From Afipia sp. (GTDB lineage Bacteria; Pseudomonadota; Alphaproteobacteria; Rhizobiales; Xanthobacteraceae), in the NCBI GenBank assembly GCA_024707075.1, contig JANQAK010000003.1, positions 1,054,001 to 1,118,000 of the forward strand: 64,000 nt of DNA. Direction: 5' to 3'. The position numbers and the translations under genes are program-made. A model generated the notes under the pieces. That model made no database searches, was not told the origin of the DNA, and was given only the letters and a program-made list of their open reading frames with translations. This document shows positions 2,447-14,451 of this stretch, piece after piece. Position 1 is the stretch's first letter. Every line of letters starts with the position of its first letter.

Positions 2447-3571
2447 TTACGCCGCGCTCTTGCTGTCCACCGTCAGCACGCCGCGCCTGATCTGGTCTTC
2501 CTCGATCGATTCGAACAGGGCCTTGAAGTTGCCCTCGCCGAAACCGTCGTCGCCCTTGCGCTGGATGAACTCGAAGAAGATCGGCCCGATGGCATTGGCC
2601 GAAAACAGTTGCAACAGCACCTTGGTGAGGCCGCCATCCACCACGCCCTCGCCATCGATCAGGATGCCGTTCTTCTGCAACCGCGCGACATCCTCGCCGT
2701 GCTTCGGCAGCCGCGCCTCGATCTTCTCGAAATAGGTTTCCGGCGGCGACGGCATGAACGGCAGGCCATCCGCGCGCAGCTTCTCGATGGTGCGATAGAT
2801 GTCCGTCACACCGCAGGCGATATGCTGGATGCCTTCGCCACGATAGATGCTGAGATATTCCTCGATCTGCCCGGAATCTCCCGCATCCTCGTTGATCGGA
2901 ATCCGGATTTTTCCATCGGGACTCGTCAGCGCGCGCGAGAACAGCCCGGATGCCCGGCCCTCGATGTCGAAGAAACGGATCTGGCGGAAATTGAACAACC
3001 GCTCGTAGAATCCGGTCCAGACATCCATCCGGCCGCGATGCACGTTATGGGTGAGATGATCGAGATAGAACAGCCCCGCGCCTTCCGGCTGCGGGTTCTT
3101 TTCGCCGAGCCATTCGAACTCGGCGTCATAAGCCGACCCATTTGCCCCATAGCGATCGACGAAATACAACAGGCTGCCGCCGATGCCCTTGATGGCCGGA
3201 ACATCGAGCGCCCTGCGGGATGCCGTCTCATTCGCTGGCTCCGCGCCGAGCGACAGCGCGCGCTCATAGGCCCGCTTCGCATCGACCACCCGGAACGCCA
3301 TCGACGGCGCGCAAGGCCCATGCGCCGCGACGAAATCGGTGCCGTGGGTGCCGGGCTGTTCGTTGACCAGATAGTTCACGTCGCCCTGACGATACACCGT
3401 GATCGCCTTGGAGTTGTGGCGCGCGATCGCGGTGAAGCCCATCAATCGGAACAGCGCGTGAAGTTTCTCGGGCTCGGGATGGGCATATTCAACGAACTCG
3501 AAGCCATCAGTTCCCATCGGGTTTTGTTCGGAAATGACAGCAGCCGGCGCATCGTGCGGAAACGGACCCAT
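2447..3571 (-). CDS. hppD: 4-hydroxyphenylpyruvate dioxygenase
   Basis: Converts 4-hydroxyphenylpyruvate plus O2 to homogentisate and CO2, the step that feeds the operon at 4.2-10.3 kb. The 374-residue protein has the two vicinal-oxygen-chelate domains of the family. The three Fe(II) ligands are visible: H172 (LDHLTH), H250 (GIQHIA) and E334 (FFEFIQRKGDDGFGEGNFKALFE, where the Glu of FFEF is the ligand). The C-terminal gate helix with its Phe residues is intact. The gene is transcribed alone, divergently from the Lrp-type regulator, and the shared 131-base gap holds palindromes that may control both. Length matches bacterial HPPD. Confidence 0.97.
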   Translation of the reverse strand: MGPFPHDAPAAVISEQNPMGTDGFEFVEYAHPEPEKLHALFRLMGFTAIARHNSKAITVYRQGDVNYLVNEQPGTHGTDFVAAHGPCAPSMAFRVVDAKRAYERALSLGAEPANETASRRALDVPAIKGIGGSLLYFVDRYGANGSAYDAEFEWLGEKNPQPEGAGLFYLDHLTHNVHRGRMDVWTGFYERLFNFRQIRFFDIEGRASGLFSRALTSPDGKIRIPINEDAGDSGQIEEYLSIYRGEGIQHIACGVTDIYRTIEKLRADGLPFMPSPPETYFEKIEARLPKHGEDVARLQKNGILIDGEGVVDGGLTKVLLQLFSANAIGPIFFEFIQRKGDDGFGEGNFKALFESIEEDQIRRGVLTVDSKSAA

Positions 3572-3702: not shown

Positions 3703-4179
3703 ATGACTTCGCTGGACGGGTTCGACCTCAAGATTCTGGCCGCATTGCAGGACGACGGCCGCCTGACCAATCAGCAACTGGCCGATGTCGCAGGCCTGTC
3801 GGCGTCGCAATGCTCGCGGCGGCGGACACGGCTGGAGGACGAGAAGATCATCGCCGGCTATCACGCCGACCTCGCCAGCGACGCGCTCGGCTTTCATGTA
3901 CTGGCTTTCATCCAGATCACGCTGGCGACCCACTCGCCCAACAACGCCAAGCGCTTCCGCGACCTGATGCGGCGCGTCGACGAGATTCAGGAGGCCTATT
4001 CGCTGACCGGCGACGCGGATTATCTGCTGAAGGTGGTGCTGAGCGATCTCAAGAGCCTGTCGGACATCGTCAACAACGTGCTGATGCCGCACGAAAGCGT
4101 GGCGCATGTGCGCTCGTCCATCGTGCTCGACCGGCTGAAGGCAACCCGCAAGCTGCCGCTGAAGAAGCTCGGGACTTAA
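3703..4179 (+). CDS. Lrp/AsnC family transcriptional regulator
   Basis: A 158-residue regulator with an N-terminal winged helix-turn-helix (about residues 6-50; LTNQQLADVAGLSASQCSRR) and a C-terminal RAM (ligand-binding) domain starting near residue 65. The RAM turn GDADYLLKV (family form G-x-x-D-Y) is present. It is divergent from hppD and its stop overlaps that of fahA by four bases, so it most likely senses an aromatic amino acid or keto acid and controls tyrosine catabolism. The target and ligand are inference from context. Confidence 0.9.
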   Translation: MTSLDGFDLKILAALQDDGRLTNQQLADVAGLSASQCSRRRTRLEDEKIIAGYHADLASDALGFHVLAFIQITLATHSPNNAKRFRDLMRRVDEIQEAYSLTGDADYLLKVVLSDLKSLSDIVNNVLMPHESVAHVRSSIVLDRLKATRKLPLKKLGT

Positions 4180-5456
4180 AGCGCCGCCAAGATCGTCCCC
4201 TCGACCTCGCCAAAGCCGATGCGATACCCATCGCCCTGACACCAGCCGCGCATGCTCAGCGAATCGCCGTCTTCAAGAAACGAGCGTTGCACTCCGTTTC
4301 CGAGATCAAGCGGCTCCGCTCCACCCCAGCTCAGCTCCAGCATGCTGCCGCGTTCGCTCTTCTCAGCGCCGCTGATGGTGCCCGATCCGAGCAGATCGCC
4401 GACGTTCATCGCGCAGCCCGATGAGGCATGATGCACAAGCTGCTGCACCGAGGACCAGTACATGTACTTGAAGTTGGTGCGGCTGATCGTATTCGGCTTC
4501 GCCATCTTCTCGGCCTTGAGATCGACGGAGAGTTGCAGGTCGTAATTGTTCGCGCCCTTCTGCTGCAGATAAGGCAGCGGCACCGGGTCCTGCACCGGGC
4601 CATGGACACGGAACGGCTCCAGCGCCTCGCGCGTCACGACCCACGGGCTGATCGAGGTGCCGAACGCCTTGGCCTGAAACGGGCCGAGCGGGACATATTC
4701 CCACGCCTGAATATCTCGCGCGCTCCAGTCGTTCAGCAGCGTGAAGCCGAAGATCATCTCCTGGGCCTGTTGCTCGGTCAGCATCTCGCCCATGGCGGAC
4801 GCCTGCCCGATCACAACACCCATCTCGAGTTCGAAATCCAGCCGCTTGCAGGGGCCGAAGCTCGGCTGGTCCGCTGTCGGCGGCTTGAGTTGCCCGCGCG
4901 GGCGGAGGATCGGCGTGCCGCTGACCACAACGGTCGATGCGCGGCCGTTATAGCCGATCGGAATCGACAGCCAGTTCGGCATCAAGGCATTGTCCTTGCC
5001 GCGGAACATGATGCCGACGTTGGTGGCATGCTCCTTCGACGAATAGAAATCGGTGAAACCCTGGACCTCGATTGGCATGTGCATCTGCGCGAAGTCCTGC
5101 GCCACCAGCGCGCGATTGCGCAACTCCCTGTTGTCGCGGAATTCCGGATGATCGTGGCGCAGCAGTTCGCTGATCCGCGCGCGCGTCTTGCTCCAGACTT
5201 TCGGACCGAGCGCCATGAAGGCGTTCAGCGACGGCCTGGCGAAGACACCACTGGCGTTCTCGAACCGGATCAGGCCCGCTGCCTCCAGCACAGCGAGATC
5301 AAGCACGAAATCGCCGATGGCCACGCCGACGCGCAGATCCGGCCGTTCCGGCGTGAAGAACACGCCATAGGGCAGATTCTGGATCGGAAAATCCGATGAC
5401 GGATCGACATCAATAAAGGAGCGCAGCTTCGGATCGTTCGGGTGCATGGTGTCCAT
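4176..5456 (-). CDS. fahA: Fumarylacetoacetase
   Basis: Last step of homogentisate breakdown: hydrolyses fumarylacetoacetate to fumarate and acetoacetate. The 426-residue length and two-domain layout fit the family: an N-terminal SH3-like domain to about residue 120, then the catalytic beta-roll domain. The latter carries FTDFYSSKEHATNVG (catalytic His), the acidic metal-binding series LDFELEMGVVIG, and LLNDWSARDIQAWE with PLGPFQAKAFGTSISPW. It is the last gene of the minus-strand operon, 9 bases after maiA. Acetoacetate made here could enter the same pool as the acetoacetate decarboxylase at 55.2 kb. Confidence 0.96.
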   Translation of the reverse strand: MDTMHPNDPKLRSFIDVDPSSDFPIQNLPYGVFFTPERPDLRVGVAIGDFVLDLAVLEAAGLIRFENASGVFARPSLNAFMALGPKVWSKTRARISELLRHDHPEFRDNRELRNRALVAQDFAQMHMPIEVQGFTDFYSSKEHATNVGIMFRGKDNALMPNWLSIPIGYNGRASTVVVSGTPILRPRGQLKPPTADQPSFGPCKRLDFELEMGVVIGQASAMGEMLTEQQAQEMIFGFTLLNDWSARDIQAWEYVPLGPFQAKAFGTSISPWVVTREALEPFRVHGPVQDPVPLPYLQQKGANNYDLQLSVDLKAEKMAKPNTISRTNFKYMYWSSVQQLVHHASSGCAMNVGDLLGSGTISGAEKSERGSMLELSWGGAEPLDLGNGVQRSFLEDGDSLSMRGWCQGDGYRIGFGEVEGTILAAL

Positions 5457-5465
5457 CCAGTATCG

Positions 5466-6104
5466 TTATTCCGCGTCAGGCTGGCGGCCCGGCTCGGCGG
5501 CGGCGAAGGCGTCGAGCTTCGAAGCCGCCGCATCGATGCCGACGATACGCTTATAAGGTGTGAGGTCCACGCCGAAACGGCGCGCGTTGAACACCTGCGG
5601 CACGATGCAGATATCCGCCAGCGTCGGCTGCTCGCCAAGGGCAAATGGCCCCGGCAGATGCGCCAGCCGCGCCTCGATGGCGTCGAAGCCGGTTTCGATC
5701 CAGTGCTTCGACCATGCCCCGCGCGTCGCCTCGTCCACGCCCATCTCGATCAGCTTGTTCAGCACGCGCAGATTGCCGATCGGATGAATGTCGCTGGCGA
5801 CCACCAGCGCGATCTCGCGCGCAATAGCCCGCCCCTTAGCATCCGCCGGCAGCAGCGGTGGCGCGGGATGAGTCTCGTCGAGATACTCGATGATGGCGAT
5901 CGACTGCGCCAGTTCGAGATCGTCGTCGATCCAGTACGGCACGAGGGCCGCCGGATTGATCTTGCGATAGGCCGGCTGCGTCTGCTCGCCCTTGCGCAGA
6001 TGCACGAAGCGATGCTCCGCGCTCAATCCTTTCAGATTGAGCGCGATGCGCACGCGATAGGCCGCGGTCGAGCGGAAGTAACCGTAGAGAACAGGTTCGG
6101 TCAT
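5466..6104 (-). CDS. maiA: Maleylacetoacetate isomerase (zeta-class GST fold)
   Basis: Glutathione-dependent cis-trans isomerase that turns maleylacetoacetate into fumarylacetoacetate. The 212-residue protein begins at ATG 6104; the longer open frame upstream overlaps hmgA and is not used. The thioredoxin-like N-terminal domain carries RSTAAYRVRIALNLKG, the zeta-class site (SSCS in eukaryotic enzymes, here STAA), and NPAALVPYW/QSIAIIEYLDE for glutathione binding. The C-terminal helical domain follows (FALGEQPTLADICIVPQVFNA). It sits between hmgA and fahA with gaps of about 10 bases, so it is co-transcribed. Confidence 0.94.
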   Translation of the reverse strand: MTEPVLYGYFRSTAAYRVRIALNLKGLSAEHRFVHLRKGEQTQPAYRKINPAALVPYWIDDDLELAQSIAIIEYLDETHPAPPLLPADAKGRAIAREIALVVASDIHPIGNLRVLNKLIEMGVDEATRGAWSKHWIETGFDAIEARLAHLPGPFALGEQPTLADICIVPQVFNARRFGVDLTPYKRIVGIDAAASKLDAFAAAEPGRQPDAE

Positions 6105-6115
6105 GCGAAACCGCT

Positions 6116-7462
6116 TTACGGCTTCGACGGGTCGAAGCGGCGCTCCAGCCCTTGCCAGCAATCGGCATAGTCGTCCTGCAACGCGCTCGTTGTCGCAGCA
6201 TACTCGGTCACGTGCTGCGAAAAGCGCGTCTCGAACATGAAGGCCATCGTGCCGGTGAGCTTCACCGGCTTGAGTTCGCCGTTGCTGGCATGATCGAACG
6301 CTTCGCGATCCGGCCCGTGCGGCAGCATCATGTTGTGCAGGCTGACACCGCCCGGCACGAAGCCCTGCGGCTTGGCGTCGTAGACGCCGTAGATCAGCCC
6401 CATGAACTCCGACATGATGTTCATGTGATACCACGGCGGACGAAAGGTGTTTTCCGCCACCATCCAGCGCTCGGGGAAGATCACGAAGTCGATGTTCGCT
6501 GTGCCCGCGGTTTCCGACGGCGAGGTCAGCACGGTGAAGATCGACGGATCGGGATGATCGAAGCCGATCGCGCCGACCGGCGAGAACGTCCGGAGATCGT
6601 ATTTATACGGCGCGTAGTTGCCGTGCCACGCCACCACGTCGATGGGCGAATACGGCAACGTGGTCGCGAACATCGACCCGCCCCACTTGACGTAAAGCTC
6701 GGTCGGGGTCTCCTTATCCTCATAGGCCGCCACCGGCGTCAGGAAATCGCGCGAATTGGCCAGACAGTTCGCGCCGATCGGCCCGCGCTCCGGCAGCGTG
6801 AACGCGCCGCCGTAGTTCTCGCAGAGATAGCCGCGCGCCGGGCCGTTCGGAAGCTCGACGCGGAACTTGACGCCGCGCGGGATGACGGCGAGTTCACCCG
6901 GCTCGATGTCGATCACGCCGAACTCGGTGACCAGGCGCAGGTTGCCCTGCTGCGGCACGAACATCAGCTCGCCGTCGGCATTGTAGAAATTCTGGTCCAC
7001 CATCGATTTGGTGATGAGATAGATATGCGCCGCCATGCCGGCCTGGGTATTGGCATCGCCCGCCGTGGTCATGGTGTAGACGCCCTGCAGAAAGGTCTGG
7101 TCTTCCTTCGGGATCGGCACAGGGTCCCAGCGCAATTGCGCGATCGGCATGTCGTGTTCGTGGCACGGCGCGGTGCGCCAGTATTTCATGTCGACCTTGG
7201 CGAAGCGGCCGGAATGCTTCACCGACGGACGAATGCGATAGAGCCACGAGCGCTCATTGGTGCCCCGCGGCGCGGTGAACGGAGATCCGGACAGTTGTTC
7301 GGCATAAAGCCCATAGGCGCAGTTCTGCGGCGAGTTGCGCCCGATCGGCAGCGCGCCAGGCAAGGCCTCGGTCTCGAAGCTGTTGCCGAAGCCTGACATG
7401 TAGCCCGGCGTGATGTTGACGCTGTTGCGATTGATGAGTCCAGGAGCGGTGTTGATATTCAT
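6116..7462 (-). CDS. hmgA: Homogentisate 1,2-dioxygenase
   Basis: Fe(II) ring-cleaving enzyme that opens homogentisate to maleylacetoacetate. It is 448 residues, the usual length. The iron site is readable near the C-terminus: [12 protein letters not shown] provides His and Glu, and [18 protein letters not shown] provides the second His region. [16 protein letters not shown] is the characteristic N-terminal block. An excellent ribosome site (AAGGAGG, 8 bases before ATG 7462) starts four bases after the upstream MBL-fold gene ends, so hmgA is strongly translated within the operon. Confidence 0.97.
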
Positions 7463-7466
7463 GGCG

Positions 7467-8423
7467 CTATCCTCCTTGCAGGGCGGCCCACATCTCGCGG
7501 TCGCGCTTGTCGGTCCAGATCACCGGATCGTCGATGCCCGACGCCTCGTCGAAGGCGCGCGATACGTTGAACGGCAGACAATGTTCGTAGATGGCGAAGC
7601 TCGCGAACTTCGGGTCCATCACCTCGCGGGTCGCGGCCATGGTTTCCTTGAGCGTGCGTCCCTTCGCCACCGAAAGCTCCGCCGCGCCGTACAGCGAAGC
7701 GACAAAATCGCGCGTCATGGCGATGGCTTCGCTCACGGTCGCGGTCCCTTTCAGCGCGTCGCCACGGCCCGGCGCGACAGCCTTGGGATTGAAGTCGCGG
7801 ATTTCGTTCAGGGTCAGCGGCCATTCGCGCAGCAGCGCGTCGCCGCAATAGCAGGCCGAATGAAATTCGATCAGGTCGCCCGAGCACATCACCTGCGCGT
7901 CGGGCACCCAGGCGACGATGTCGCCGGAGGTATGCCCCGCGCCGAGATGAATGAGTTGCACCTCGCGCTTGCCGAGATAGAGCGTCATGCTGGTCTCGAA
8001 TGTCAGCGTCGGCCAGGTCAGACCGGGAATGCTCTCGGCATCGCGAAACAGCCGCGGAAACCGGCCGAATTCCGAATCCCAGTCCTGCTGTCCGCGCTCC
8101 ATAATCAGACGATAGGTTTCCTGCGATGCGACGATGCCCTGCGCGTGGTAGGCCGACGCCCCGAGCACGCGCACCGCGTGATAATGCGAAAGCACCACGT
8201 ACTTGATCGGCTTGTCGGTCACGTTCTTCACGCGGTCGATCACGCTGCGGGCCATCGCCGGAGTCGCCTGTGCATCGAATACCATGCAACTGTCGTCGCC
8301 GACGATCACCGCCGTATTGGGATCGCCCTCCGCAGTAAAGGCGTAGATGTCGGGGCCGATCTCCGAGAAGGTGATTTTCTTCTCGGCCATGTCCCCGGTC
8401 GAAGCGAACCCTTTTGCGGTCAT
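7467..8423 (-). CDS. MBL-fold protein with a degenerate metal site, homogentisate operon
   Basis: A 318-residue protein with a metallo-beta-lactamase fold. The core signature HxHxDH is replaced by HYHAVR (residues near 80), so the Asp and third His are missing. The later GAGHTSGD His and the CSGDLIEF Asp remain, and the last ligand region reads APGRGD where hydrolases have a His. A canonical two-zinc centre therefore looks impossible; one metal or none is likely. It overlaps the DUF2783 gene by ATGA and hmgA follows four bases later, so a role in homogentisate or related aromatic metabolism is likely but undefined. Confidence 0.85.
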
Positions 8424-8659
8424 TTGCTGTCCCTGGTTGAAGTCTTTTTGTCGCCTGTCCCGTCGGGACGGAGCTGCCGCTTCGCCAGCGCGATGGCTTC
8501 CCGCAGCACCTCGGTATCGCCGATGTGATTGGCGAGAATCAGAACCAGCGACGTGTCGAGCAACGCGCTGTCCTCATCGCTCAGGCCGCGATGCGCCTCC
8601 ACCACCAGACGATAGGCACCGTCCGGATCGGAAAAATTCGATTGCGTCGAGAGCGTCAT
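8420..8659 (-). CDS. DUF2783 small protein
   Basis: A 79-residue soluble protein with an acidic, helical centre (GLSDEDSALLDTSLVLILANHIGD) and a basic C-terminus. I recognise it as the DUF2783 family, which recurs beside the MBL-fold and monooxygenase genes in homogentisate clusters of this order. No catalytic residues stand out. It overlaps both neighbours by four bases (monooxygenase upstream, MBL-fold downstream), which implies translational coupling and perhaps a small accessory or subunit role. Function unknown. Confidence 0.8.
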   Translation of the reverse strand: MTLSTQSNFSDPDGAYRLVVEAHRGLSDEDSALLDTSLVLILANHIGDTEVLREAIALAKRQLRPDGTGDKKTSTRDSK

Positions 8660-10293
8660 GACATCGCTCCTGCCTGTGCCGTGGCGCGGGCAATGGCCGC
8701 CTTCACACCGGCATCCGTCGGCTTCTTGAAACGCGCAGCGACATAGCCATCAGGGCGCAGCAGATAGGCCGCGCCGTCCGTCGCGTCATAGCGCTTCGCA
8801 AATGCGCCCGATGGATCGCGCAGCGAAGCGGCTTCGCCGATCCGGATCGACTTGCAAGCCGCCGTTTCGACGTCAACTTCGTTGCCCGATTGCAGCAGCA
8901 CGAAGCCATCGAACGGTTTTCTCACCTCGGTCAGATGGACGGACTCGCCCGTCGCGCTGGCAAGCGGCGCATCGATCATGTGTGCGCCGGGGCGCGGCCC
9001 GGCGGTCCAGACATCGACATCCGGCGTCGACAGCGGCGAGTCGTATACCGAAGGCGTCGAGAGCCGCCCGCCATTGACCATGCGCTTGGCGAACTCGGTT
9101 TCCTTCGCCAGCCGCAGCACCGCCTGGCGCATGCGGCGTTCCTGCGGCGAGTGCGGCGCGATGAAGTCGGTCGAGCGCGTCGAGGCGCGGATGTTCTCGT
9201 CGGCGGCGGCACTGCGCTCGATCTCGTAGCTGTCGAGCAGCGCCATCGGCGCCTCACCGCGCAGGATCATGGAGAGCTTCCATGCGAGGTTTTCGGCGTC
9301 TTCGAGTCCGGAATTCGCGCCCCGCGCGCCGAATGGCGAGACCTGATGCGCGGAATCACCGGCGAAGATCACGCGCTCATGCACGAAGCGCTGCATCCGG
9401 CGGCACTGGAACTTGTAGATCGAAATCCATTCGAAATCGAAATTCGCATGACCCAGCATCCGCTCGATCCGCGGCCGCACATTCTGCGGCAGCCGCTCGA
9501 CGGCAGGATCGGCATCCGGCCCCAGTTGCAGGTCGATGCGCCAGACATCGTCGGGCTGGCGATGCAGCAGCGCCGATTGCCCGGCATGGAACGGCGGATC
9601 GAACCAGAACCAGCGTTCGGTTGGGAATTCCGCCGTCATCTTGACGTCCGCGATCAGGAACTGGTCCTCAAAGACCTCGCCGGAAAACTCCGCGCCGACA
9701 GATCCGCGCAGCGCCGAACGTGCGCCGTCGCAGGCGATCACAAAATCGGCCTTCAGATGATAGCGCCCGTCCGGCGTATCGATGGCGAGGACAACGTGAT
9801 CGTTGCGCTGCTCCAGTCCGGCGACCTTGTTGCGCCAGCGCAGATCGACCTGCGGCAATTCCCTGATGCGGTCGACCAGAAAGGCCTCGGCGTAGTACTG
9901 CTGGAGATTGATGAAGGCCGGCATCTTGTGGCCGTCTTCCGGCAACAGGTCGAACTGATAGACCATGTCGTCCTTGAGAAAGATCTTGCCGACCTTCCAG
10001 ACCACGCCCTTCTCGACCATGCGTTCGCCGACGCCGAGACGATCCCACACTTCCAGTGAGCGCTTGGAGAAGCAGATCGCGCGCGAGCCCTCGCCGATCC
10101 TGTCGGCATCATCGAGGACCACGACGGCATGGCCACGCTGCGCAAGATCGATCGCCAGCGTCAGCCCGACCGGCCCTGCTCCGACAATGATCACCGGATG
10201 ACGCGCGGCCCTGGCCGCCGGCCGGTCCTGATCAGCATGGCGATGATAACCGAACTGGGTGATGGAGGATTGCGACACGTCTCGACCCTGCAA
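8656..10293 (-). CDS. FAD-dependent aromatic monooxygenase (MhpA/PheA-like)
   Basis: Class A flavin hydroxylase of about 545 residues. Visible motifs: the dinucleotide fold VIIVGAGPVGLTLAIDLAQRGH near residue 30, the DG segment FVIACDGARSALRG, and the flavin-ribityl GD motif VIFAGDSAHQVSPFGARGANSGLEDAENLAWKL. The C-terminal thioredoxin-like domain is present. These enzymes ring-hydroxylate phenols using NAD(P)H. In this operon it could make homogentisate or a related ring-cleavage substrate (for example from a hydroxyphenylacetate), but the substrate is inference. TTG 10293 is chosen because AGGAG stands 7 bases before it; no in-frame ATG fits. First gene of the operon, divergent from marR. 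Confidence 0.88.
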   Translation of the reverse strand: MQGRDVSQSSITQFGYHRHADQDRPAARAARHPVIIVGAGPVGLTLAIDLAQRGHAVVVLDDADRIGEGSRAICFSKRSLEVWDRLGVGERMVEKGVVWKVGKIFLKDDMVYQFDLLPEDGHKMPAFINLQQYYAEAFLVDRIRELPQVDLRWRNKVAGLEQRNDHVVLAIDTPDGRYHLKADFVIACDGARSALRGSVGAEFSGEVFEDQFLIADVKMTAEFPTERWFWFDPPFHAGQSALLHRQPDDVWRIDLQLGPDADPAVERLPQNVRPRIERMLGHANFDFEWISIYKFQCRRMQRFVHERVIFAGDSAHQVSPFGARGANSGLEDAENLAWKLSMILRGEAPMALLDSYEIERSAAADENIRASTRSTDFIAPHSPQERRMRQAVLRLAKETEFAKRMVNGGRLSTPSVYDSPLSTPDVDVWTAGPRPGAHMIDAPLASATGESVHLTEVRKPFDGFVLLQSGNEVDVETAACKSIRIGEAASLRDPSGAFAKRYDATDGAAYLLRPDGYVAARFKKPTDAGVKAAIARATAQAGAMS

Positions 10294-10346
10294 TGACCGG
10301 CTCCTGAACGAAGCTCTAGCCATGAGCATAGACCACCGGTAATATA

Positions 10347-10360
10347 GTTGCAACTGCAAC
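10347..10360. promoter_or_regulatory. Candidate MarR operator
   Basis: Perfect inverted repeat GTTGCA-AC-TGCAAC between the divergent monooxygenase and MarR genes. It ends three bases before the GTG start of the regulator, so binding there would block marR itself and probably the homogentisate operon. Size and symmetry fit MarR sites; binding is inferred. Confidence 0.6.
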
Positions 10361-10363
10361 CAA

Positions 10364-10876
10364 GTGGCCATCGACGCCGAGACCGGACACCCTTTCTTGA
10401 CCAAGCTCGATCTCTTCAAGTTCATGCCGTTCCGGCTGAATCGCCTCGCGGCGGAAGTCAGCGCGGAGCTCGCCAGTGAATATGGCGAGCGCTACGGCCT
10501 CGATATTCCGGAATGGCGGGTGCTGGCCACGCTCGGCTTCCGCGGCGACGCCTGCACCGCGCAATACATCGCCTATTGCACGCGGACGCATAAATCGACC
10601 ATCAGCCGGGCGGTGGCCCATCTGCTGGAACAGCACCTGATCGAGCGGGTGGAGAACGAGGACGACCGGCGCGAGCTTGCATTGCAGCTCACCCGCAAGG
10701 GTCGCGCGCTTTATGAGGAGTTGATCCCGCGGCTGCTCCGCAAGGAACAGGACATCCTGTCATGCCTCACGGCGGCGGAACGCAAGGACTTCGCGCAGAT
10801 GCTCGGCAAGATCGAGCAGCGCCTCGATCTGGCTCAAAGCACTAAGGACGCGCGCGCGAAGAAGGGTGCGTATTAG
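10364..10876 (+). CDS. MarR family transcriptional regulator
   Basis: A 170-residue winged-helix repressor starting at GTG. The DNA-binding part is clear: ACTAQYIAYCTRTHKSTISRAVAHLLEQHLIERVENEDDRRE covers the recognition helix and wing with the family DxRR. Long helices at both ends form the dimer interface. It is divergent from the monooxygenase-hmgA operon and has a perfect palindrome at its own start, so it most likely autoregulates and represses that operon until an aromatic acid binds. The ligand is not known. Confidence 0.9.
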   Translation: MAIDAETGHPFLTKLDLFKFMPFRLNRLAAEVSAELASEYGERYGLDIPEWRVLATLGFRGDACTAQYIAYCTRTHKSTISRAVAHLLEQHLIERVENEDDRRELALQLTRKGRALYEELIPRLLRKEQDILSCLTAAERKDFAQMLGKIEQRLDLAQSTKDARAKKGAY

Positions 10877-10907
10877 ATTTGGATTCGGCGCGGATCACGC
10901 ACGGGAT

Positions 10908-11030
10908 GTCGTCCCGGCGCAGGCCGGGACCCATAACCACCAAATATCAAAATGATGCGAGAAGACCGCTCCGGCATCCCACTCAATCGAAAACTCAGGG
11001 AGTATGGGACCCGGCCTGCGCCGGGACGAC
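10908..11030. repeat. Inverted-repeat element, family A copy 1
   Basis: A 123-base element with 25-base terminal arms (GTCGTCCCGG... and its complement, one mismatch). Each arm is itself a hairpin. The centre (ATAACCACCAAATATC..., ending in ACTCAGGG) matches the centre of the copy at 26784-26908. It lies between the marR and chemoreceptor stops, in a convergent gap. Confidence 0.8.
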
Positions 11031-11074
11031 CTGAATGGAGATTGTGCGCGCCACCTTAACGATCGCGACCTGCA

Positions 11075-13124
11075 TCACGCCGCCCGGATGTTCGCCATGA
11101 AGCGATCGAGCTCCTGACGAAGCCGGGTGCTTTCGACCGCCAGCGTCTGCGCCGAACTCAGGACCTCGCTGGAGGCCGTGCCGGTTTCGCTCGCGCCGCG
11201 ATTGACCTCGGAAATGTTCTCGGCAATCTCGGCGGTGCCGCTGGCGGCGTTCTGAACATTGCGCGCGATCTCGGTGGTCGCGGTGCTCTGCTGCTCGATG
11301 GCCGCCGCGATATTGCCGGCAATCTTGGAAATCTGGCCGATGGTTTCGCCGATCTCCTTGATGGCGGACACGGATTCCTGCGTCGCCTCCTGCATGCCGG
11401 CGATATGCGACGAAATCTCGTCGGTCGCCTTCGCGGTCTGGCTCGCCAGGGATTTCACTTCGGATGCGACGACGGCGAAGCCACGGCCTGCCCTCGCCAG
11501 CGCGGGCGGCCTCGATGGTCGCGTTCAACGCCAGCAGGTTGGTCTGCTCGGCGATAGCGGTAATCAGCTTGACCACGTCGCCGATCTCCTGCGCCGCCCG
11601 CGACAGCTTCGCGATGCGCGCATCGGTGGCTTCGGCTTGCGACACGGCCGCCGCCGCGATCCGGCTCGATTCCTGAACCTGCCGGCCGATCTCGATCACG
11701 GATGCTGACAGTTCTTCTGTCGCCGCCGCGACGGACTGCACATTGGTCGACGCTTCCTCCGAAGCGCTCGCGACCCTGCCCGAAAGCTCCTGCGCGGCAT
11801 CGACCGTGCGCGTCAGGGTGGTGGCGGAGGATTCCAACTGGCTGGCCGACGACGATACGCTCGACACGATGACGCCGACGGCGGTCTCGAAGTTGTCGGC
11901 GAAGCGATGAAGCTCGGCGCTGCGTGCCTCGGTGGCGGACTTGCTCTGAATTTCGCGCTCCGCAGCCTCGCTTTCCGCCTTGGCGACGGCCCGCATCTTG
12001 AATTCCTCGACAGCACCCGCCATTTCGCCGATCTCGTCCTTGCGGCCAAGGCCCGGCAGGACGACATCGAAGTTGCCATCGGCAAGCTGCCGCATCGCGG
12101 CGCACATGCCGATCATCGGCCTGGAAATCCCCTGCCCCAGCAGCCATGCCAGCAGCACGCCGAACGCGAGGCCCGCGCCACCGAGAATCGTCACGAACTG
12201 GCCGGTCGAACGGGCCGTGCTGGCGGATTCGGTCGCGACCTTCTCCTGCTGGGCAAGCAGGCCGCCCTTGATAACCCGCGCCTGCCCCGTCACCCCGTCG
12301 GCCGCCTTGGTCATCCTGACGGACAGTTCGTCGACCTTGGCGGTATTCTGGACAAACTTTGCAAACGCCGCCTGATAGGCTTCCAGTTGCTCCGAGATTT
12401 CCACCATTTTCGGCTTCAGCTTCTCATCCTCGGCCGTCAGCGAACTGAGGCTGTTCTTCAGCATCTGGATTCGGGCGCCGGCGCTGGCTGCAACGGTCTT
12501 GTCCGGCCGCGCCACATAGTTCGTGATGTTGGAGGTGATCGCCGCCGACTGTGGGGCCAATTCCTTGACCGTGGAATGCAGCGACGTCAGGCCCGCCAGC
12601 ATCGCGGTATCTGCAAGGTCGTCGAATTTGTAACGGATGGTGTTGCCCATCCGGAGCAACTGGTTCGAAGCGATCGAGGCATTCTCGGTCTTCAGAGCGA
12701 CGGCCTCCCCAAACAGCTTCGCAAAATCACTATAGCTGGAGGACAGATTCAGAATGCTCTTCTTGGTGTCGCCGGTCGCAACCCGCGCCGCCTGCGCAAT
12801 GGCGCTGCCGAGCCCGATTTCCGCCGAACGCGCGTTCGATTCGTCGTCGGGCGTTCCGCTCATCACGTAATATTTTGCAAGAAGCTGATAGCTCGCCAGC
12901 TCGCGGTCGATCTCGCGCGCGCTGTCGGTTTCAGCAACGATGCCCTGGTAGGACTGGATTTCCCTGGCAATGCGTTCGAAGCCGAAATAGGCGATACCCA
13001 TATTGATCGCGGAAATGCCAAGCACGGCGATAAAGCCGAGAATAATCTTGGTCCGAAATCTAAGATTTGAGAGGAAGCTGACTTTTGCTTTCTGCTTCGT
13101 CGGAGCGCCCCTGAACCAGCCCAT
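11075..13124 (-). pseudogene. Methyl-accepting chemotaxis protein, one frameshift
   Basis: Membrane chemoreceptor of about 680 residues once joined. N-terminal membrane helix ([23 protein letters not shown]), a periplasmic helical sensor of about 280 residues, second membrane helix ([21 protein letters not shown]), HAMP domain, then the signalling domain. At 11491-11493 the plus strand has CCC where CC is expected. This shifts the frame inside the conserved hairpin tip ([21 protein letters not shown], interrupted after GE). The proper end resumes as [15 protein letters not shown] and finishes with [11 protein letters not shown] at 11075. ATG 13124 is preferred (AGGA 7 bases upstream). The ligand is unknown. 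Confidence 0.85.
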
Positions 13125-13233
13125 TCCACCATCCTCAGCCATTACATGCGAAACCAGCCGGCAAAGGCCGCCGACTGATGCCGTAAAATTAGATGGAAAT
13201 GGATAACACGTCGTAAACTCATACCTTGTGCAG

Positions 13234-13260
13234 CAAAAAAACGCCCGCATAGCGGGCGCT
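13234..13260 (-). terminator. Rho-independent terminator of nrdB
   Basis: On the minus strand a CGCCCGC-TAT-GCGGGCG stem is followed by seven T residues. It stands about 70 bases after the nrdB stop and closes the nrdA-nrdB block. The plus-strand reading has no T tract. Confidence 0.85.
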
Positions 13261-13328: not shown

Positions 13329-14451
13329 CTACTCCCAGCTTAGCGCGCCGCCGTTCTGATACTCGATCACGCGGGTCTCGAAGAAGTTCTTCTCTTTCTT
13401 CAGGTCCATCGCTTCCGACATCCAGGGAAACGGGTTCTCGGCCTCGTCGAACACGCGGGTCAGCCCGAGCTGGGCGCAGCGGCGGTTGGCGATGAAGTGC
13501 ATGTACTGCTCGCACAGGGCCGCGTTCAGGCCGAGAAAACCCCGCGGCATGGTATCGCGGCCATAGGCCGCTTCCAGCTCGGCGGCATCGCTGATCATGC
13601 CGCGCACCTCGTCCTGGAATTCACGCGTCCACAGATGCGGATTTTCGATCTTGATCTGATTGATGACGTCGATGCCGAAATTCAGGTGAATGGATCTCGT
13701 CGCGCAGGATGTACTGATACTGCTCGGCGATGCCGACCATCTTGTTGCGGCGGCCGAGCGACAGGATCTGCGCAAAGCCAGTGTAGAACCACATGCCCTC
13801 GAAGATCACGTAGAACGCCACGAGATCGCGCAGGAAGGCCTGATCGGTTTCCGGCGTTCCGGTCTTGAAGCTGGCATCGTCGAGATGCTGGGTGTGCTTG
13901 AGCGCCCATGCCGCCTTGTCAGTGATGGACGGCACCTCGCGATACATGTTGAACAGTTCGCCCTCGTCGAGGCCGAGGCTTTCGACGATGTACTGGAAAG
14001 TGTGAGTATGCACCGCTTCCTCGAATGCCTGCCGCAGCAGGTACTGGCGGCATTCGGGATTGGTGAGGTGGCGATAGATCGCCAGCACGATATTGTTGGC
14101 CACAAGGCTCTCCGACGCCGCGAAGAATCCGAGATTGCGCTTGATAGCGCGGCGCTCGTCCTCGGTGAGGCCATCGCGCGACTTCCACAGCGCGATGTCG
14201 GCCTGCATCGAGACTTCGGTCGGCATCCAGTGGTTGTTGCAGCCGGCCAGATATTTCTCCCATGCCCATTTGTATTTCAGCGGCAGCAACTGATTGACGT
14301 CGGCGCGGCAGTTGATCATCGCCTTGTCGTCCACCGACACGCGGCCGCCGTTGCGGTCGATCTCGCCAAGGCCTGTTGAATCAAGGCCGGTCAGGATGGG
14401 CGGAAGAGTGTTGAGGACCTTGTTCGGTGAAGTGTCGGACCAGTCGAGCAT
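13329..14451 (-). pseudogene. nrdB: Ribonucleotide reductase beta subunit, class Ic-like, one frameshift
   Basis: Radical-generating subunit of NrdAB. Metal ligands can be followed: E114 (AASESLV), E145 and H148 ([10 protein letters not shown]), E218 (FEGMWFY), then E252/H255 in DE-SIH. The radical position four residues after H148 is F152, not Tyr, as in the Mn/Fe class Ic enzyme of Chlamydia, whose sequence this protein resembles throughout. An extra base at 13694-13695 splits the second ExxH motif. The frame resumes as [15 protein letters not shown] and ends normally with [14 protein letters not shown]. Ribosome site AAGGA stands 8 bases before ATG 14451. It follows nrdA across a repeat element. 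Confidence 0.9.

Follow-up and report, generated by a model that had tools for sequence, protein, structure and literature searches.

A stretch of 64,000 nucleotides from Afipia sp. (GenBank assembly GCA_024707075.1, contig JANQAK010000003.1, positions 1,054,001 to 1,118,000), referred to below as the window, encodes on its minus strand a protein of the metallo-beta-lactamase (MBL) fold in which canonical metal-binding residues are altered. Its gene (7467-8423, 318 amino acids) is preceded by those of a DUF2783 protein and of a flavin adenine dinucleotide (FAD)-dependent aromatic hydroxylase, and is followed by hmgA, encoding homogentisate 1,2-dioxygenase. In this work we have analyzed the MBL protein and its relatives and found that the altered residues characterize a conserved family which accompanies the hydroxylase and the DUF2783 protein. 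The MBL very probably forms a functional unit with the hydroxylase and, as predicted from its residues, is quite likely to bind one metal. The interpretation that we favour, tentatively, is that an MhaAB-type hydroxylase is served here by a dedicated one-metal hydrolase, which would free hydroxyphenylacetate or homogentisate from a lactone or a thioester.

The window MBL passes the PF00753 profile (43 bits, gathering score 22.7) but lacks both the HxHxDH motif and the last histidine of the canonical metal site. In place of the motif it carries HYHAVR (residues 80-85; 8169-8186), in which the first two metal-binding histidines are retained and the aspartate is replaced by Val84, followed by Arg85; the canonical position of the last histidine is taken by Arg220 within GRG (residues 219-221; 7761-7769). 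Class B1 beta-lactamases usually have HxHxDR, i.e. arginine for the last histidine of the motif, hence the telling changes are those from aspartate to valine in the motif and from histidine to arginine in GRG.

Relatives of the MBL were taken from a species collection (the best 80 of 230), a phylum sample of 299 genomes, plasmid records (53 with a match, the MBL being read for 15 family members and a Streptomyces outgroup) and a class sample of 245 genomes. A first alignment of 125 rows omits duplicate short loci of the genomes refetched with wider flanks; an alignment of 157 rows includes 69 diverged members, the class-sample MBL of genome G715 and the second copy of G729 not being included. 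H80, V84 and D183 are kept in 156 of the 157 members, and Y81, H82, A83, R85, H164, G219-R220-G221 and H281 in all of them. His164 (7932-7934) would be the third histidine of the proposed one-metal site, Asp183 (7875-7877) falls, mapped by motif, on the position of the bridging aspartate (cysteine in class B1), and His281 (7581-7583) belongs to a family-specific C-terminal helical part. E186, Y192 and D195 are also retained in 156 or 157 of the members, the N-terminal arm F6-A7-S8-x-x-D11 (8391-8408) is invariant in all 157, and 65 columns are invariant across 37 members (44-65% identity) and the window MBL.

Every row of the 125-row alignment reads HYHAVR with the lone exception of locus L117 (genome G139), which has N80, L84, A183 and V186, and the motif is present in 14 of 14 MBLs from wider stretches, mostly the same genes as before. 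The Streptomyces outgroup (L187; 31% identity over 64% of the query) keeps HHHGDH and GHG, so the change to HYHAVR and GRG marks this MBL family. The initial annotation had reported both changes in the window MBL, where we confirm them, and had named homologues with HxHxDH in the same context as the finding that would speak against it. No such homologue was met in either alignment or in the wider stretches, so that this reading is ruled out; the two changes hold family-wide, HYHAVR being kept by 156 of the 157 aligned members. The further claim that the usual two zincs cannot be held agrees with the sequence, since most of the second-metal ligands are gone: Val84, Arg85 and Arg220 would occupy their places, and H80, H82 and H164, retained together with D183, likely form a one-metal site (the numbered beta-lactamase ligands were mapped by motif, without superposition). 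G139 is also the sole MBL genome of the phylum sample with neither DUF2783 nor an over-cut-off hydroxylase, and its MBL lacks H80, D183 and E186, a pattern expected if retention of the metal site depended on the hydroxylase; a contrary case is G672, without DUF2783, whose MBL keeps HYHAVR.

The structural model built with 41 aligned members reached a predicted local distance difference test score (pLDDT) of 91.3, against only 43.9 for the single-sequence model. Folds were compared with Foldseek and then with VIA-align, which covers only the best 1000 chains of the former. The top match was PDB entry 8D2Z from Burkholderia cenocepacia (Z 46.6, root mean square deviation 1.2, 57% identity over 303 residues; E 1.1e-122 by phmmer); the match is full-length and the protein has HYHAVR and PGRG in its sequence, and the title of the entry refers to an MBL superfamily protein and names no function. 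The second entry, and among those listed the nearest fold of a characterised protein, was the chlorothalonil dehalogenase Chd (6UXU; Z 29.7, root mean square deviation 2.9, 279 residues, 20% identity), matched over residues 9-297 of the model, helical C-terminal part included. According to the excerpts of PMC12784990, Chd acts on an aromatic pesticide by a mononuclear catalytic zinc held by Asp116, His117, Asn216 and His257, and one-metal MBLs are capable of hydrolysis. If the motifs align as inferred (by motif position only), these ligands correspond to V84, R85, D183 and R220 of the window MBL, and the family appears to retain the other half of the metal site relative to Chd. The initial annotation had regarded a single-metal role of an MBL in aromatic catabolism as unprecedented, which the example of Chd, as described in these excerpts, contradicts; the non-hydrolytic role that it had entertained is not supported, since a one-metal site of three histidines could still hydrolyse.

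With the metallo-beta-lactamases of classes B1 and B2 the window MBL shares the fold and the Zn1 histidine set, and differs from them in the second metal site, mostly lost, and in the long C-terminal helical part. By profile it is neither a subclass B1 metallo-beta-lactamase (NF033088, 80 bits against a cut-off of 200) nor a quinoprotein relay zinc hydrolase (TIGR04558, 96.3 against 300 bits; TIGR04559, 98.3 against 280 bits). Its C-terminal 97 residues matched only 8D2Z in a PDB sequence search with E up to 10. At the opposite end, residues 1-10 of the model have a mean pLDDT of 59; in 8D2Z, whose sequence has 327 residues, the aligned range 14-319 coincides with the 306 that were modelled. 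The N-terminal arm is apparently disordered in 8D2Z, and these two observations suggest that it is mobile and perhaps serves in binding.

The co-occurrence of the three genes was assessed in both genome samples. Among the 299 Pseudomonadota genomes the MBL was found in 38, DUF2783 in 37 and a hydroxylase over the cut-off of profile NF006002 in 37; the DUF2783 and hydroxylase genomes are the same 37, all of them with the MBL, and the 38th MBL genome is G139 (Fisher p 1e-46, kinship ignored). In the class sample the genes counted were those of the MBL and of DUF2783: the MBL was found in 35 genomes, 8 of which also belong to the phylum sample, DUF2783 in 38 and both genes in 33. Of these 33 pairs, 19 are close neighbours, and in one (G004) a contig end falls between the two genes. 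The partners of the other 13 pairs are separated by 0.5 Mb or more or are found on separate contigs, in part in draft genomes (the G634 MBL is 3 kb away from the point where its contig stops); the hydroxylase was found in none of the 13 MBL stretches of these separated pairs, read up to 8 kb either side. In close relatives of the window, hydroxylase, DUF2783 and MBL stand together in 80 of 80 loci, and in 41 of the 45 loci compared in detail the hydroxylase lies near the MBL on the same strand, in variable order. Protein distances of the MBL and the hydroxylase are correlated over 41 loci (Mantel r 0.56, a value reached by 0 of 2000 permutations), which any two genes inherited together would be expected to show. 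In G246 a fusion of hydroxylase and MBL was ruled out, the coordinates giving two starts in different frames. The MBL family spans Alpha-, Beta- and other Proteobacteria plus Actinomycetota. In the Rhodococcus and Nonomuraea loci the MBL and the hydroxylase are adjacent and DUF2783 was not found beside them, for Rhodococcus not on the whole plasmid.

HmgA over its cut-off is encoded in 71 of the 299 genomes, 29 of the 37 genomes with the trio among them. That the MBL is tied to the HmgA step was rejected, as 8 of the 37 trio genomes have no over-cut-off HmgA and 42 of the 71 HmgA genomes have no MBL. The MBL is associated with the hydroxylase/DUF2783 pair and with phenylacetate genes more than with hmgA. 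The conserved trio in an aromatic-catabolism context, proposed before on the window alone, is therefore borne out; of its assignment to a homogentisate operon, the conservation of the trio and its position next to hmgA in the window stand, but the association is stronger with the hydroxylase pair and phenylacetate genes.

The FAD protein of the window (open reading frame 8656-10425) scores far over the cut-off of the NF006002 subfamily (818 against 416 bits) and matches PF01494. NF006002 is named FAD-dependent oxidoreductase, and the assignment of the protein as MhaA-type is our own reading of this match. Since family homology begins at about residue 53 of the open reading frame, the real start of the gene is probably near 10320. 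The DUF2783 protein (8420-8659, 79 amino acids; PF10932, 90.2 bits) is a candidate MhaB-type coupling protein. As stated in the excerpts of PMC3053370 and PMC10983741, MhaAB of P. putida U consists of an FAD protein and a coupling protein of 60 amino acids and converts 3-hydroxyphenylacetate to homogentisate, and in P. xenovorans LB400 a similar pair, proposed to be MhaAB, adjoins hmgA; the former source, likewise in excerpt, describes the system as 3-hydroxyphenylacetate 6-hydroxylase with an FAD protein of about 560 amino acids, said to be highly specific for 3-hydroxyphenylacetate. The window pair is like MhaAB in size, kind and place, its DUF2783 gene overlapping that of the hydroxylase by four bases; MhaB is likely a DUF2783 protein and, by this analogy, the window DUF2783 protein a probable MhaB-type coupling protein. 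The systems differ in that no MBL is mentioned for MhaAB, the word lactamase being absent from the excerpts of PMC3053370 and metallo from those of PMC10983741. DUF2783 was found in 0 of 25 and 0 of 249 genomes of two genera presumed to be Pseudomonas, a search with no positive control by which absence is not proven. A VOC protein (glyoxalase/dioxygenase fold) of about 180-200 amino acids recurs near DUF2783 and the hydroxylase (L190, 4219-7772; L182, L239, L240 and L148) and may represent another ring-opening branch; in L190, a plasmid with no MBL, an alpha/beta hydrolase accompanies it.

For the link to phenylacetate, we fetched 14 MBL stretches with no neighbouring hydroxylase (from the 13 genomes with separated pairs and from G672) and 14 hydroxylase/DUF2783 stretches with no MBL (from 9 of the same 13 genomes, 3 of the 5 class-sample genomes with DUF2783 and no MBL, and the phylum-sample genomes G231 and G019). 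Genes were called with codon-position weighting, loci such as L118, L214 and L231 being read by homology scans only. Genes for PaaG, PaaH, PaaI, PaaJ or PaaK are present in 7 of the 14 hydroxylase/DUF2783 stretches (L229, L230, L232, L233, L234, L236 and L237), drawn from five families. PaaI is one of them in 6 of the 14; in L230 it accompanies DUF2783, the hydroxylase not being found in that stretch. In L233, PaaI and PaaG pass their NCBIfam cut-offs, as do PaaJ/PcaF and PaaK in L232; PaaH of L232 and L234 and PaaG of L236 lie just under theirs, and the remaining assignments are phmmer scores. PaaX, the phenylacetate repressor, is encoded in 4 of the 14 unlinked MBL stretches: next to the MBL in L219 and L224, which belong to one family, and at distances of 1.6 kb in L217 and 5 kb in L216. 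The PaaX proteins of L216, L217 and L219 exceed the TIGR02277 cut-off, and that of L224 matches the Pfam PaaX profile. Elsewhere the whole trio stands with paaABCDE (L143, and L136, which has PaaX too) or near PaaD and PaaE (L140), and in Nonomuraea PaaK-PaaI is divergent from MBL-hydroxylase. The window genome has PaaABCDE, PaaX, PaaI and PaaK near 330-341 kb of contig C6 (by phmmer, about 1.6 of 5.3 Mb being examined). In a rough control with the same thresholds, 80 stretches of 20 kb were taken from the genome of the window, and 2 of them, both of one cluster, contain paa genes; at the resulting 2.5% per stretch, 7 of 14 has a p of 2e-8 and 4 of 14 a p of 3e-4, kinship ignored. The other neighbours of unlinked MBLs vary (HerA, TRAP transporter, alternative oxidase, thymidylate kinase, glmU, glmS), further sharing being noted only within the pairs L115/L116 and L218/L223. 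Upstream of the unlinked MBL in L217 (4062-7460) lie a cytochrome P450, PaaX and a low-scoring PaaA-like protein, and in L136, whose genome has no over-cut-off HmgA, an HmgA-like protein of 383 amino acids (10000-11148; 85 of 510.75 bits) adjoins the trio and the paa genes.

In the route that we propose, the FAD protein, aided by the DUF2783 protein, would para-hydroxylate hydroxyphenylacetate to homogentisate, which would then be degraded by HmgA, MaiA and FahA. The MBL would hold one metal via H80, H82 and H164 (with D183); Arg220 and Arg85, in the places of second-site ligands, may hold a carboxylate or an oxyanion, and the enzyme would most likely hydrolyse a lactone or coenzyme A (CoA) thioester in which hydroxyphenylacetate or homogentisate is trapped. 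The foremost substrate would be 2-hydroxyphenylacetyl-CoA, together with its cyclised product, derived from the rearomatised epoxide of the phenylacetate pathway, and the MBL could likewise open homogentisate lactone. As described in part of PMC7497051, the ring epoxide of phenylacetyl-CoA is unstable and gives 2-hydroxyphenylacetyl-CoA, which likely loses CoA intramolecularly, a step termed there acid anhydride formation, from which we infer ring closure to a lactone. Opening of the lactone or thioester and subsequent para-hydroxylation would lead to homogentisate. According to excerpts of PMC8449657, Cupriavidus pinatubonensis JMP134 degrades 2-hydroxyphenylacetate via homogentisate, there by a P450. 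A hydrolase would fit in with the partners of the MBL, with the neighbouring PaaX and PaaI and with the observation that the MBL is in part independent of HmgA. We consider hydrolysis somewhat more probable than other chemistry; that the substrate is a lactone or CoA thioester of hydroxyphenylacetate or homogentisate is a more doubtful part of the proposal.

Several observations weigh against such a hydrolase serving the hydroxylase. The partnership is not strict: in 5 of the 38 DUF2783 genomes of the class sample no MBL reaches the threshold (G621, G647, G667, G677 and G775, although G667 has an MBL score of 24.7 bits and the G677 genome is 74% complete), the MBL genomes G139 and G672 have no DUF2783, and the record of a Variovorax plasmid has no MBL but encodes DUF2783 together with a hydroxylase of 39% identity. 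In L117 the invariant arm is retained though metal residues are lost. As to the phenylacetate link, the 14 unlinked MBL stretches contain no Paa enzyme over threshold, only PaaX and the PaaA-like protein of L217; in the window and in its 80 close relatives (flanks up to 6 kb) the trio is accompanied by the hmg genes, with neither a paa gene nor PaaX nearby, and 34 of the 37 diverged MBL loci show no paa gene. To our knowledge, MBL lactonases are two-metal enzymes, and in the study of MhaAB of P. putida U homogentisate was reportedly made with no MBL mentioned. Finally, PaaI, a hydroxyphenylacetyl-CoA thioesterase of the Thioesterase superfamily (PF03061) and not an MBL, has a job that overlaps the one proposed for the MBL, and it is encoded beside hydroxylase/DUF2783 in four MBL genomes (L229, L230, L232 and L233); the window genome, too, encodes PaaI. 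A second thioesterase would be redundant there, which makes a lactone a better guess for the substrate than a thioester. A simple exchange of MBL for PaaI was rejected: G621 and G775, with no MBL, do have PaaI by the hydroxylase, but the G647 stretch has no paa gene and the same four MBL genomes have PaaI at that place.

The strong co-occurrence with the hydroxylase and DUF2783 also accords with a non-catalytic or regulatory MBL, a third hydroxylase component that would dock by its flexible N-terminal arm and raise coupling or protect the hydroxylase. The F6-A7-S8-D11 arm, invariant in 157 of 157 members yet of low model confidence and apparently disordered in 8D2Z, would suit such docking, as would the Rhodococcus and Nonomuraea loci, which keep MBL and hydroxylase with DUF2783 not found beside them. 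However, H80, H82, H164, D183, E186, Y192, D195 and H281 are kept in 156-157 of 157 members, beyond the needs of a scaffold, the arm is retained in L117, whose genome has neither DUF2783 nor an over-cut-off hydroxylase, and the PaaX-linked MBLs do not adjoin the hydroxylase. We regard a third component as unlikely. The strict conservation of residues is even harder to reconcile with a decaying hitch-hiker devoid of operon function: canonical metal ligands are indeed lost, as judged from the sequence, but the 65 invariant columns among 37 members at 44-65% identity and the window MBL, and the joint retention with DUF2783 even when the two are not neighbours, make decay very improbable indeed.

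Two other explanations keep the MBL as an enzyme and change its chemistry or its substrate. H80, H164 and D183, mapped by motif, fall on what we take to be the iron-holding positions of the MBL-fold persulfide dioxygenase ETHE1, and with two histidines and one aspartate retained there, and oxygenases as neighbouring genes, the MBL could be a mononuclear non-haem iron enzyme, oxygenase-like in its reaction. All three histidines are kept, though, and they suit zinc equally, and ring opening is already provided by HmgA in 29 of the 37 trio genomes; of the two this is the slimmer chance. The other, only slightly less improbable, is that the MBL hydrolyses an upstream ester or amide conjugate of plant-derived 3-hydroxyphenylacetate, the phenylacetate link being then one of shared regulation only. 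Some loci do contain an amidase, an additional hydrolase or transport genes, those of TTT or branched-chain-type ABC binding proteins, and P. putida U MhaAB is described as highly specific for 3-hydroxyphenylacetate in the excerpts of PMC3053370. Nevertheless, a single conjugate hardly accounts for a family conserved in Actinomycetota as well as in Alpha-, Beta- and other Proteobacteria, and CoA-linked chemistry is suggested by PaaX and PaaI as neighbours.

The MBL of the window is the sole member of its family found in the host genome. The hydroxylase and DUF2783 genes overlap at 8656-8659 and the DUF2783 and MBL genes at 8420-8423, by four bases each as reported in the initial annotation, and hmgA (6116-7462; TIGR01015, 692 bits against 510.75) begins without overlap after a gap of four bases (7463-7466) following the MBL stop. 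Further along the minus strand are maiA for maleylacetoacetate isomerase (5466-6104; TIGR01262, 262 bits) and fahA for fumarylacetoacetase (4176-5456; TIGR01266, 574.7 bits); hppD is located at 2447-3571. A MarR-family regulator is encoded on the plus strand (10364-10876; PF12802, 51 bits), divergently from the hydroxylase. Between the two genes lies the palindrome TTGCANNTGCAA (10348-10359), a possible operator, which has a single match in the window; as an exact pattern it recurs at this position in 6 of 81 near relatives (those listed as examples being Afipia) and has 9 matches in 1.74 Mb of loci. Beyond the regulator, a minus-strand gene resembling by eye that of a methyl-accepting chemotaxis protein (10995-13250) shifts frame near 11.46 kb, its C-terminal part being in open reading frame 11075-11458, and appears to be broken or affected by an assembly error. 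Less than 3 kb from this frameshift, a gene similar by eye to that of the ribonucleotide reductase small subunit (13329-14451, minus strand) is split across two frames near 13.7 kb.

The MBL family itself is already known, with a structure in PDB and members annotated as MBL fold hydrolases. In the open-licence PMC literature, in part among the matches listed, we found no description of its role or of the trio, and DUF2783 occurs in none of the 25 papers listed out of 143 matches. Taken to its full extent, the proposal that a one-metal hydrolase serves the hydroxylase would make the trio a salvage route that connects the phenylacetyl-CoA pathway with that of homogentisate, and the MBL a new one-metal hydrolase with arginine replacing the second metal, an extension that we consider unlikely to hold in every part. 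The hydroxyphenylacetyl damage product of the ring epoxide would be recovered and hydroxylated to homogentisate, returning its carbon and CoA to metabolism, and the MBL would be a third member of MhaAB systems that has so far been overlooked, in some lineages perhaps controlled by phenylacetyl-CoA via PaaX. A family with a solved structure and no job in its title thereby gains a sharp hypothesis, namely which metal it binds and which lactone or thioester it opens. If true, it would explain the hydroxylase-hydrolase pairing kept in more than one phylum, link two central aromatic pathways and show an MBL working with an arginine in place of the second metal.

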